DNA from: Lewinella sp. 4G2
Lineage (GTDB): Bacteria > Bacteroidota > Bacteroidia > Chitinophagales > Saprospiraceae
Assembly (NCBI RefSeq): GCF_001625015.1
Contig: NZ_LVWJ02000014.1
Location: forward strand, 2,356,001 to 2,420,000
Direction: 5' to 3'
DNA: 64,000 bases
The position numbers and the translations under genes were made by a program. This document shows, in pieces, positions 49,976 to 54,311 of this stretch; position 1 is the stretch's first letter, and each line of letters begins with the position of its first letter. The notes beneath the pieces were generated by a model. The model saw nothing but the letters and a program-made list of their open reading frames with translations. It was not told the DNA's origin and did not search any database.

Positions 49976-51058
49976 ATGAATACAGACACTAAGTATCTTT
50001 TTCGGACCGCCCAACTCGCATTGTTGGGTGATAGTAGGGTACTGGATTCCCCACGTGTAGGAAGTGTTTTGGTGCACGGCCAAAAAATAATTGGTGAAGG
50101 CTACCATCAACAAGCAGGAAAGGCCCACGCCGAAGTCAACTGTTTAAACAGTGTAATTCCGGAAAATCGACACCTCATCAGTGAATCCACGCTGTATGTC
50201 AGTTTAGAACCCTGTTGCATTGTTGGTAAGACCGGTGCATGCTCTACCCTGATCCTGAATCATGGCATCAAACGCGTCGTCATCGGCCAGCGGGATAGTA
50301 CCCCCGGCGTCGACGGCGGAAGCGTCGAGCTACTGCGAGCGGCAGGCGTAGAGGTCGTTGAGTATCCGGACTTTGAACCTACCCGAATTGCGGGGCAGTT
50401 CCGCGAAACCCTCGTTACAAAACACCGGCCGTACGTAACGCTGAAGTACGCTCAGTCCGCCGACGGCTATCTCCGCCCCGCAGACCGAGCGGCGGAGTAT
50501 TGGATCACCAACCCGATCAGTCGAAGATTGGTCCACCGCTGGCGGGCCGGGAAGACGGCCGTCATCGTCGGTGCCCGCACGGTACTGGATGACAACCCCA
50601 GCCTGACGACTCGCCTCTGGCCGGGCCCTTCCCCCCGACCGGTAGTCATCGACCCGCGTGGCCGGCTGACGGGTAAAGAGAAGGTCTTCTCCGGGCCTAG
50701 CTCGCCCATTCATTACACGAGCCGGCCCGTTGAGTTGCCAAGGGGGAATAGCGTGGTAATGCCAAATAATTTGGATAAAGCCACGCTGGAGTTAGTCCTA
50801 CAAGATTTGGCTGAGCGCCGGCTGGCCAACGTTACCGTTGAAGGTGGTGCAGCTATCCTGAATACTTTCTTGACCTCCGGGTTATGGGATGAGGCGAAGG
50901 TGTTTACCGGTGAGGTGCACTTTGGTGGGGGAGTGGTGGCGCCGGAGCCGGGTGCCTACGGGGGAAAGGTGACGGCTAGTTATGCTGTTGGGTCGGATAG
51001 GGTAGTTGAGTACCGCAATTTTGTCATAGCTCGGAGACCCGACCTCCGGTCGGGTTGA
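49976..51058 (+). CDS. ribD: Bifunctional riboflavin biosynthesis deaminase/reductase, 3' end rewritten by a repeat
   Basis: A 360-residue RibD. The deaminase domain (about 1-145) has the zinc motif HAEVN (His51, Glu53) and EPCCIVGKTGAC (Cys80, Cys89). The reductase domain follows with RPYVTLKYAQSADGYL and VEGGAAILNTFL. It carries out the second and third steps of riboflavin synthesis. The last native-looking residues are YRNFVIA; the final eight, RRPDLRSG, and the stop are encoded by the left hairpin of a 108-bp repeat. Riboflavin genes ribA/B/E are not adjacent. Confidence 0.9.
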   Translation: MNTDTKYLFRTAQLALLGDSRVLDSPRVGSVLVHGQKIIGEGYHQQAGKAHAEVNCLNSVIPENRHLISESTLYVSLEPCCIVGKTGACSTLILNHGIKRVVIGQRDSTPGVDGGSVELLRAAGVEVVEYPDFEPTRIAGQFRETLVTKHRPYVTLKYAQSADGYLRPADRAAEYWITNPISRRLVHRWRAGKTAVIVGARTVLDDNPSLTTRLWPGPSPRPVVIDPRGRLTGKEKVFSGPSSPIHYTSRPVELPRGNSVVMPNNLDKATLELVLQDLAERRLANVTVEGGAAILNTFLTSGLWDEAKVFTGEVHFGGGVVAPEPGAYGGKVTASYAVGSDRVVEYRNFVIARRPDLRSG

Positions 51059-51140
51059 AGGGGTGCGGGTACTTGAATCGCGGTAAATTTCGGGTGGTTG
51101 AAAAGAACACGACCATACCCCGACCGGAGGTCGGGGCTCC
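51033..51140 (+). repeat. Double-hairpin repeat, copy 1 (overlaps ribD end)
   Basis: The left end forms CCCGACC-TCC-GGTCGGG, the right end CCCCGACC-GGA-GGTCGGGG. The loops TCC and GGA are complementary, so the whole unit could also fold end to end. About 60 bp between the hairpins (with ATCGCGGTAAATTT and GGTTGAAAAGAACACGACC) is highly conserved among copies. Outer ends are GGAG and CTCC. Confidence 0.9.
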
Positions 51141-51142
51141 GA

Positions 51143-51249
51143 TATAGTCAGACCTCTAGTCGGGTTAGATGGGGCAAATACTTGAATCGCGGTAAATTTT
51201 GGGTGGTTGAAAAGAACACGACCATACTCCGACCGGAGGTCGGGGCTCC
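51143..51249 (+). repeat. Double-hairpin repeat, copy 2
   Basis: Directly follows copy 1 in the same orientation. The interior is nearly identical to copy 1; the left hairpin is decayed (GACCTCTAGTC) while the right hairpin keeps GACC-GGA-GGTC. A partial right-hand end follows near 51281-51307. Confidence 0.85.
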
Positions 51250-51369
51250 AATCACAAAGTCCCGGTCCGTACCAAATACACGGAGGTCGGGCCCCAAGCT
51301 CCGATCCAACATTTCAATTATTACCTTTAGTATACCTATTTACCACACCCCCTATCAAACCTACTCACA

Positions 51370-52293
51370 ATGACTACCGCCACCACCCTGACCGATTACG
51401 GTCGGGAACTAGACTTCCGCCAAGCTCCTAAAAGCATCTTTGGCCTGTACCGGGGCAACCTGATTAACATCATCCACGGAGGATCCGTCGACAGCCTCGG
51501 AGAAAAGGTGCTTTTCATTCAGACTGGAGAGATCAGCGAGGAAAACCAACAGTTGCTTAGTAGAAAACTCAATACTCGTAAGGATGATATCGGCTTCGAC
51601 GGTGAGCTCGTGGTTACCGAGGACACTATCCAACTCGTGTTCGAATCCACCATTCGTAAGATCAAAGCGGAGAAAATTGATCGGGCGCTCACCATTATTC
51701 AGGAGGGGTTGGATCAGTTCGGCATCCCCGCCCGGTTCACTGAGGAGGAAAGCCGCCACCACGGCTACTACGTCCTGGAAGGAACTGGCGTGGTTATGGA
51801 TACCAACGAAGCCAGCTCCCTGATGCGCGAATTGGACGACCACGACGAGCGCCGTAGGGAGGCAGAAAACGATTACACCATGGGCGCCGCCGGTGCCATC
51901 TTGGGCGGCATGCTCGGTGTAGCGGCCTGGGTGGCCGTCGCTTACTTCACGGGCTACATTACTACGCTGGGAGCCTTCGTAATTGTCTTCCTGAGCTACT
52001 TAGGCTACGGTAAACTAAATGGTAAACTTGGACCGCTTACGAAGCCCATTCTAATCGTCGTCAACCTGATCCTTATCGTCGTCGCCCAATTCCTGACCCT
52101 TTGGGCGGAGATCCGCAACGAGGGGTACAGCATCGGCGATACCTACCAAATCCTGGCGGAATTGCCCGACGTGCGCAAGGAGTTCTTCATCGGCCTGGCG
52201 CTCCCCCTGGTCTTCATGGCCGTGGCCATCTTTTACATCGTTCGCGACGTGAGCGTAGAAGGGGTGAAGTTGGTGAAAGCGGAGAAGTTGTAG
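51370..52293 (+). CDS. Membrane protein of unknown family
   Basis: A 307-residue protein. A soluble N-terminal region (about 1-165) with mixed helices and strands precedes four membrane helices: AAGAILGGMLGVAAWVAVAY, LGAFVIVFLSYLGYG, PILIVVNLILIVVAQFLTLW and FFIGLALPLVFMAVAIFYIV. The final residues EGVKLVKAEKL are cytoplasmic or periplasmic. No family is recognised. Repeat copies lie on both sides, 120 bp before and 26 bp after the gene. Confidence 0.7.
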   Translation: MTTATTLTDYGRELDFRQAPKSIFGLYRGNLINIIHGGSVDSLGEKVLFIQTGEISEENQQLLSRKLNTRKDDIGFDGELVVTEDTIQLVFESTIRKIKAEKIDRALTIIQEGLDQFGIPARFTEEESRHHGYYVLEGTGVVMDTNEASSLMRELDDHDERRREAENDYTMGAAGAILGGMLGVAAWVAVAYFTGYITTLGAFVIVFLSYLGYGKLNGKLGPLTKPILIVVNLILIVVAQFLTLWAEIRNEGYSIGDTYQILAELPDVRKEFFIGLALPLVFMAVAIFYIVRDVSVEGVKLVKAEKL

Positions 52294-52319
52294 GAGGCTG
52301 AGTGCCGAGGTCCATGCCT

Positions 52320-52427
52320 GGAGACCCGACCTCTGGTCGGGTCTGAGGGGTACGGGTACTTAAATCGCGGTAAATTTTGTGTGGTTGAAAAGAACACGAC
52401 CCTACCCCGACCAGAGGTCGGGGCTCC
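52320..52427 (+). repeat. Double-hairpin repeat, copy 3
   Basis: Left hairpin CCCGACC-TCT-GGTCGGG, right hairpin CCCCGACC-AGA-GGTCGGGG. Compared with copy 1 both loops have changed in a matching way (TCC to TCT, GGA to AGA), keeping them complementary. It lies 26 bp after the membrane protein gene and before the convergent lepA. Confidence 0.9.
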
Positions 52428-52523
52428 TTATGCAACCGTCGGAGGGCCTCCGTTTGTAGAATGGGCCGCCTAACGGCGTGCCATCGCTACGTAGGCCGGC
52501 CCTTCGGGACGGGGGGGCCTGGA

Positions 52524-54311
52524 CTAATCCAACTTCAAGCACTCCAAAAACGCCTTCTGTGGCACTTCCACCTTACCGAATTGGCGCATCTTCCGCTTAC
52601 CGGCCTTCTGCTTATCGAGGAGCTTGCGCTTCCGGCTGATGTCACCACCGTAACATTTGGCGGTTACGTCCTTCCGCATGGCGGAGAGGGTTTCGCGGGC
52701 GATCACCTTGGCGCCAATGGCCGCCTGGATGGCGATCATGAACTGCTGACGGGGAAGGAGTTCGCGCAATTTCTTACACATCCCGCGTCCAACGTAAGCG
52801 GCCTTGCTGCGATGGACGAGTGCGGAAAGCGCATCCACGTTCTCGCCGTTGAGTTTGATGTCCATGCGCACCAAATCCGTTTCTTGGTATTCCTTCGGCT
52901 GGTAGTCGAAACTCGCGTAGCCGCGGCTGATGGATTTGAGGCGGTCGTAGAAATCAAAGACGATCTCCGCCAGGGGCAGCTCAAAGTGGAGCTCCACCCG
53001 CTGCGGGCTGAGGTAAGTCTGCTTCGTCAGGTGGCCCCGCTTATCGATGCACAGGTTCATGATGGCGCCGATGTAGTCGGTCGTCGTAATGATCTGGGCG
53101 TTGATGATTGGTTCTTCCACCATTTGGCGGTTGTTCTGCTCGGGGAGTTCCGCGGGGTTGCGGATCTCGGTCACGTTCCCCTTCGTATCCGTCACGCGGT
53201 AGGTTACGTTCGGTACGGTGGTGATGACGTCCATACCGAATTCGCGGAAGAGACGCTCCTGGACGATCTCCAGGTGCAGCATCCCCAGGAAGCCACAACG
53301 GAAACCGTAGCCGAGAGCGGCGGAGGTTTCGGGCTCAAAAATGAGCGAAGCATCATTTAACTGAAGTTTTTCCAAGCTATCGCGCAGTGGCTCGAAGTCG
53401 TCGTTGTCGAGGGGGAAGATGCCGGCGAAGACCATCGGCTTCACTTCCTCGAAACCGGAGAGCATCTCGGCGGGGTTGTCCTTGGTCGTGATCGTGTCAC
53501 CCACCTTGATTTCCGAACTATTTTTCACGCCAGTCACGATATAGCCAACGCTGCCGCACTTCACCTCCTGCATGGGCCGGGGGTTGATTTCCATCGCACC
53601 TACTTCGTTTGCATCGTACTCGGCACCCGTCGCGATGAACTTGACGGTATCCCCTTTGCGGAGGGTACCGTTCATAATCCGTACGTATGCGATCACCCCG
53701 CGGAAGGGATTGAATACGGAGTCGAAGATCAGCGCTTGGAGGGGTGCTTCTGGGTCGCCTTCGGGGGCGGGGACGCGCTCCACGACGGCCGTCATGATGT
53801 CCTGCACGCCGATGCCGGTCTTGCCGCTGGCCAGGATGATGTCCTCCCGGTCACAGCCAGTCAGTTCCATCATTTGGTCGGCCATCTCTTCGATGCGGGC
53901 CGTCTGCATGTCTACCTTGTTCAGGACGGGGATGATTTCCAGGTCGTGCTCCAAAGCCAGGAAGAGGTTGGAGATCGTTTGGGCTTGAATCCCCTGGGTC
54001 GCGTCCACCAATAGCAGGGCACCTTCGCAGGCGGCGATGGAGCGGCTCACTTCGTAGGAGAAGTCCACGTGGCCGGGCGTGTCGATCATGTTGAACACGT
54101 AATCCGTCCCGTCCAGGTGGGTATAGTTCATCTGGATGGCGTGGCTCTTGATGGTGATGCCCCGCTCGCGTTCGAGGTCCATATCGTCGAGCTGTTGGTC
54201 CATCTTTTCCCGTTCACCGACGGCCTGGGTAAAGTCCAGCAGGCGGTCAGAAAGGGTAGATTTGCCGTGGTCGATGTGGGCAATGACGCAAAAGTTACGG
54301 ATGTGCTTCAT
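52524..54311 (-). CDS. lepA: Elongation factor 4 (LepA)
   Basis: A 595-residue translational GTPase of the usual length. G1 is [16 protein letters not shown]3 [12 protein letters not shown]4 NKVD. The LepA-specific C-terminal domain includes [19 protein letters not shown] and [19 protein letters not shown]. It back-translocates or remodels stalled ribosomes under stress. A TACTTTTG promoter box lies 9-16 bp upstream. Confidence 0.97.

Follow-up and report, generated by a model that had tools for sequence, protein, structure and literature searches.

The three repeats around ribD in Lewinella sp. 4G2 are very probably REPINs of a non-canonical RAYT/REP lineage, for which we propose as mover a RAYT that is encoded elsewhere in the genome. 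Directly observed were a repeat family, base pairing within its hairpins, a transposase gene between cognate repeats and, in a relative (G019), the same order of genes free of repeats. The window, i.e. the whole stretch of 64,000 nt that was analysed (C14:2356001-2420000), is part of a 5.2-Mb genome. An earlier reading of the sequence only had described three copies of 108 bp in it, two of them in tandem, and this was borne out: Relative to the start of copy 1, copy 2 begins at 109 nt and copy 3 at 1178 nt, with identities to copy 1 of 76% and 91%, respectively. The features of the region are as follows:

49976..51058, + strand: ribD; its reading frame passes through the left hairpin of copy 1
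51033..51140, + strand: probable REPIN, copy 1; middle of 62 bp between two REPs in inverted orientation
51033..51055, + strand: left REP of copy 1; GGAG foot, 8-bp stem, loop TCC
51118..51140, − strand: inverted REP of copy 1; loop TCC
51142..51249, + strand: probable REPIN, copy 2, forming a tandem with copy 1; its left REP has decayed and carries the loop TCT
51228..51249, − strand: inverted REP of copy 2; loop TCC, one mismatch from the unit
51283..51298, no strand assigned: possible remnant, short and degenerate, that looks like a REP end (81% complementary, inverted pair I11)
51370..52293, + strand: 307-aa ORF, flanked by repeats; its homologue in G019 (45% identity) has the same neighbouring genes
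52320..52427, + strand: probable REPIN, copy 3; both loops TCT, between two convergent genes
52524..54311, − strand: lepA-like gene, neighbour to the right; its counterpart in G019 is 94% identical

Both ends of the repeat consist of one 22-nt unit, GGAG-N-CCCGACC-TC[C/T]-GGTCGGG, in opposite orientation. The ends had previously been described as hairpins of the form GACC-nnn-GGTC. In copies 1 and 3 such hairpins are indeed intact and the two ends pair mutually as inverted repeats of 22-24 nt; the stem, however, comprises 8 bp rather than 4 and is preceded by GGAG. At the left end of copy 1 it is formed by ACCCGACC and GGTCGGGT, which directly follow GGAG and enclose a 3-nt loop. Folding as DNA provided −8.9 and −9.4 kcal/mol for the two ends of copy 1. 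For the whole copies, z-scores of −6.45 (copy 1), −7.42 (copy 3) and −1.85 (copy 2) were obtained as RNA, and of −4.95, −6.77 and −0.75 as DNA. Among these window copies, to which folding was applied, copies 1 and 3 thus qualified as hairpins over the whole doublet and copy 2 did not, its end-to-end fold being weak because its left end has decayed. A search of the region 50500-53000 against Rfam returned only mir-54 at 25.1 bits, compared to a gathering score of 70, which is probably a by-product of the long hairpin.

The middle of the repeat behaved differently from its ends. Searching the own genome with copy 1 recovered no middles other than those of the three window copies, while dozens of further matches covered the ends alone. 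Elsewhere in the own genome and in 20 genomes of the genus, matches to the middle remained at chance level (best E 0.155 and 0.113, respectively). When the middles of the 12 convergent doublets described below were compared with each other at an E cut-off of 0.01, the one similar pair consisted of the two window copies among them, 1 and 3.

A pattern search of the whole genome allowing at most 3 mismatches resulted in 36 + 41 matches, compared to 3 + 5 for the reversed control. From the stretches around the matches of both searches we compiled a set of 42 REP units on 4 contigs, with at most 3 mismatches to the unit and at most 1 in the foot. Allowing 4 mismatches gave 44 rows, from which C14:1056986 and C19:277428 with 4 mismatches each were dropped. 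Also outside the set are C14:1596911 (foot ATAG, loop TCC, partner loop TCC), C14:2850121 and C14:250575 with other loops, and the decayed left end of copy 2 in the window. The foot reads GGAG in 41 of the 42 units and AGAG in one, at most one foot mismatch having been permitted in the search. The feet are thus not the canonical GTAG or GTGG of REPs, and GGAG is also the foot beside the transposase gene (see below). Forty-two units is a low copy number for REPs, which counts against the RAYT/REP reading.

Twenty pairs of neighbouring units were less than 1 kb apart. Twelve of them were convergent, four were oriented '--', three '++' and one '-+', an excess of convergent pairs over the expected quarter (binomial p = 9e-4). 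These convergent doublets span 105-173 bp in ten cases; the other two measure 76 and 818 bp, and the latter contains the transposase gene.

Two further groups of hairpins were seen. Ten hairpins of the CCCGACC-TCC-GGTCGGG type share the same or nearly the same core without the GGAG foot (e.g. C14:1006326, 1008582, 1149074, 1150747, 2576317 and 3880453); they were left out of the 42 units and are possibly terminators or another repeat class. Seven near-identical units form a subfamily, GGAGGCGCGACC-TCY-GGTCGGGC, with a G-G mismatch in the stem. They lie at L067 1486-3433 and L068 5926-12699, in one direction within each contig, and those of L067 are part of direct repeats, spaced by 180 and 166 bp, that follow two ORFs.

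The loops had been the main point of the sequence-only reading: They are complementary between the ends of copy 1 (TCC/GGA) and of copy 3 (TCT/AGA), which was taken as compensation and thus as a sign that pairing between the ends matters. The paired loops are present in these two copies, whereas copy 2 carries TCT on the left and TCC on the right. Complementary loops follow automatically, because both ends are one unit, inverted; what had appeared as an unusual end-to-end loop complement restates this orientation. We nevertheless considered that selection on end-to-end pairing, be it as a long hairpin or as loop-loop pairing, keeps the ends complementary. Such selection would be in agreement with the very stable folds of copies 1 and 3 as both RNA and DNA (z from −4.95 to −7.42), with the joint change of both loops in copy 3, and with compensatory changes across the long hairpin that an excerpt of PMC3116915 reports for REPINs of P. 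fluorescens. Across the family, however, the two loops are equally frequent (21 TCC and 21 TCT), such that agreement in a single doublet is a coin toss. They agree in 7 of the 12 convergent doublets (table 4,3 / 2,3; Fisher p = 1), a sample in which a weak correlation would be missed. Leaving aside the two that lie in the window, agreement is seen in 5 of 10 (table 3,3 / 2,2; p = 1). Adding C14:1596911 and copy 2 brings agreement to 8 of 14. A genome-wide correlation of the loops, on which the sequence-only reading had staked its claim, was hence not found in the 12 doublets, and we regard selection on end-to-end pairing as highly improbable.

Pairing within the single hairpins was of a different kind. 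Only 4 of the 12 doublets have the same base next to the foot (base 5) at both ends, while inside each unit this base pairs with base 23 in all 42 cases (19 A-T, 12 C-G, 9 G-C and 2 G-T). Since base 5 is free in the search pattern and base 23 lies outside of it, this pairing was not forced by the search. Shuffling gave a mean of 20.8 pairs, and none of 20,000 shuffles reached 42, in a test that ignores the shared descent of the copies. Without the seven-unit subfamily the bases still pair in 35 of 35 units (19 A-T, 12 C-G, 2 G-C, 2 G-T), and each of the three bases seen at position 5 (A, C or G) occurs with either loop. The constraint is one on each small hairpin and is not visible on end-to-end pairing.

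For copy 3 only, the matching loops could stem from quasi-palindrome correction, in which one arm templates the other, or from gene conversion. Copies 1 and 3 have a common middle and differ in both loops, as such a process would leave them. The foot-side pairs of copy 3 are, however, unlike (A-T on the left, C-G on the right), and unlike loops in 5 of the 12 doublets together with unlike foot-side bases in 8 speak against a general homogenisation. We consider such an event unlikely; it would be compatible with the copies being REPINs.

An associated transposase, which had been suggested as a thing to look for, was found in form of a Y1 gene that is related to TnpA-REP and lies between inverted REPs. 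The genome holds six Y1-type transposase genes and a seventh that was obtained from the homologue search. The gene on contig C12 (41843-42508, minus strand, 222 aa) is bracketed by two inverted perfect REPs, C12:41804(+) and C12:42600(−), both GGAGACCCGACCTCCGGTCGGG. The other six Y1-type genes are at least 11 kb away from any of the 42 units. The C12 protein matches PF01797 with 29.9 bits (cut-off 23) and contains the motifs NHVH and YILNNP; against NF047646 (REP_Tyr_transpos) it reached 54.6 bits, which is below the cut-off of 80. In an alignment of 21 of the 57 homologue matches, the two His residues of the NHVH motif are invariant, as is the Tyr of YILNNP, and NF047646 is matched by all 21 proteins at E 0.001 or better. 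A search of the PDB with the single C12 sequence returned no relevant chain, whereas the profile of the 21-member alignment finds E. coli TnpA-REP 4er8 at E 4.9e-4.

A second REP-transposase-like gene of 251 aa is located on C11 (L036 1195-1950; NF047646 55.8 bits). All 42 GGAG units are at least 139 kb away from it, and it may therefore have repeats of its own.

We extended the comparison to 59 relatives, 20 of them from the same genus. A transposase homologue at E 1e-10 is present in 24 of the 60 genomes including the own one, i.e. in 23 of the 59 relatives. The GGAG REP itself (at most 1 mismatch) was absent from all 59, compared to 39 matches in the own genome. From 30 transposase loci, L089, L094, L099, L102 and L103 were dropped since the contig end cuts their flanks. 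Of the remaining 25 loci including the own one, 17 have an exact inverted repeat of at least 14 nt within 600 bp on each side of the gene, compared to 20 of 600 pairings in a control that combined flanks across loci. Outward-facing hairpins with an NGAG foot stand on both sides of the own gene and of 9 of the 24 others, on one side at 8 loci and on neither at 7; the hairpins are not always the same, and these counts come from a scan without shuffle control, in which inward-facing hairpins were also met at several loci. The three closest full-length homologues (51-52% identity over the match) are without NGAG hairpins on both sides: L084 and L085 have such a hairpin on neither side and L083 on the left only.

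Two units taken from relatives were searched for in 21 genomes of the genus. The first gave 6, 13, 12 and 4 matches in four genomes; the second gave 89, 27, 23, 22 and 8 in five genomes and single matches in three, those with 22-89 being G004, G009, G015 and G017. Both gave none in the own genome. Relatives of the transposase are present at 15 named loci, nine of which belong to Lewinella or Neolewinella (35-54% identity); the other six are weaker, partial matches from Neobacillus, spirochaetes and one bacterium. At C50:54351-55178 of genome G020, eight GGAG-type hairpins follow each other in a nearly regular step of about 115 bp, forming a long tandem array.

We also compared the ribD locus itself with that of G019, which has the nearest RibD (66% identity) and was the one relative used for this comparison. 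In G019 ribD, the homologue of the 307-aa ORF and lepA occur in the same order and direction. The ribD stop ends at 799948 and the ORF starts at 800005 or 799954, leaving a gap of 56 or 5 bp; the gap between the ORF and lepA measures 23 bp, and neither gap contains such a repeat. In Lewinella sp. 4G2 the corresponding gaps amount to 311 and 230 bp and contain the repeats. The 23-bp gap of G019 (L172) holds TTGGAGACC, letters that also start many units of the own genome; this may be chance, a target or a short remnant. The gene at 52524..54311 is one that we take to be lepA, going by its sequence. The 307-aa ORF has no match in Pfam or NCBIfam, shows hydrophobic segments by eye and is present in 5 of the 21 genus genomes including the own one.

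The left hairpin of copy 1 is coding, since the ribD frame ends just past it: At 51032-51058 the first REP encodes the C-terminal tail RRPDLRSG of RibD, and the in-frame stop (51056-51058) comes directly after. This tail was absent from the 15 RibD C-termini of the genus that were read, out of 16 loci of which the short L159 gave none (L157, L162, L169, L170 and L171 were left out).

Given their position, the repeats might act as terminators or as 3' hairpins stabilising the mRNAs of ribD, the 307-aa ORF and lepA. Copy 1 coincides with the end of ribD and copy 3 separates two convergent genes, both form strong RNA hairpins, and PMC6006769 reports that REPs increase the stability of mRNA and bring about termination. 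By eye no long T-run follows the hairpins, though, and the unit is present at many further places, including both sides of the transposase gene, while the G019 genes do without the repeats. We thus think it rather doubtful that this is what the repeats are for; it could be a second role next to being REPINs.

REPINs as the identity of the repeats agree with the likeness to a REP doublet (BIME) noted at the outset, which is supported by the genome-wide copies, by the transposase gene with this repeat on either side, and by the repeat-free interval in G019. The REPINs would be non-autonomous miniature elements ending in inverted 22-nt REPs, with the RAYT (TnpA-REP type) that is encoded between two inverted REPs on C12 as putative mover. 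By analogy to E. coli TnpA-REP, each REP would fold into its own small hairpin in single-stranded DNA, and the HUH/Y1 enzyme would bind hairpin and foot, cut beside the hairpin and rejoin the ends. Binding, cutting and mobility are what we infer. Doublets may in this manner be copied or moved as units into intergenic gaps. Because the middle is common to the three window copies, the tandem and the third copy are probably products of a local duplication, or of a renewed insertion, of one doublet together with its middle.

The system would work like RAYT/REPIN, most of the defining features considered being present, apart from the canonical GT[AG]G foot. This assigns the repeats to an established class of miniature mobile DNA, and the idea that the loops compensate each other from end to end is dropped. 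What remains useful is the non-canonical foot, as the RAYT/REP literature cited here, in the parts available, centres on GT[AG]G and on Proteobacteria. A separate RAYT/REP lineage might exist in Lewinella-like Bacteroidota, with an NGAG foot and with transposase and hairpin diverging together between species, and hence with a probably different cutting specificity; we put this forward tentatively, at somewhat less than even chances. A genus with many diverged pairs of transposase and hairpin would allow tests of how foot and stem are recognized. A literature search on REPINs in Lewinella provided no match, and a broader one provided none on the genus by title among the matches listed.

The following comparisons draw on excerpts of the cited papers. 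With the REPINs of P. fluorescens (Bertels and Rainey 2011, PMC3116915) the repeats share the inverted REPs with a spacer, the short spacing, the possible long hairpin and the link to a RAYT. The commonest REP-to-REP spacings given there are 71 and 110 bp. They differ in number, with 430 doublets there and about 40 units here, and in the GGAG foot. In P. fluorescens SBW25, deep reads were also searched for excised doublets. The paper further mentions nearly identical REPINs that cluster in tandem, which covers copies 1 and 2.

The RAYT/REP systems of Nunvar et al. 2010 (PMC2817692) are alike in the transposase gene between inverted REPs, in the strain-specific REP sequence and in a palindrome that is kept while its sequence changes. 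The REPs in the table of that paper have GTAG or GTGG feet, unlike the GGAG found here, and by its criteria homologues were found only in gammaproteobacteria. TnpA-REP subclass 2.6 of PMC6006769 is closer in taxonomy, being from Bacteroidetes, and its flanking structures lack the GT[AG]G consensus as well. These structures are, however, called weaker, while the hairpin described here has a perfect 8-bp stem. The protein motifs also deviate: NHVH, W then D, and YILNNP are found here instead of WQ and YIH[QN]NP. In the aligned relatives the residue after W is mostly E or A and the Tyr motif reads YVLNNP, most proteins fitting Y[IV]LNNP. The motifs misfit the 2.6 row, and the 2.4 row in the W motif.

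TnpA-REP of E. coli (4er8) is a distant homologue of the C12 transposase. According to PMC8266576, both hairpin and foot mediate its binding to single-stranded REP, next to which it cuts. The E. coli system resembles the present one in having a hairpin with a conserved tetranucleotide foot, inverted pairs and tandem BIMEs. Compared to the E. coli BIMEs described there, the Lewinella repeats have a perfect stem, a 3-nt loop, a main form without bulge and a GGAG foot.
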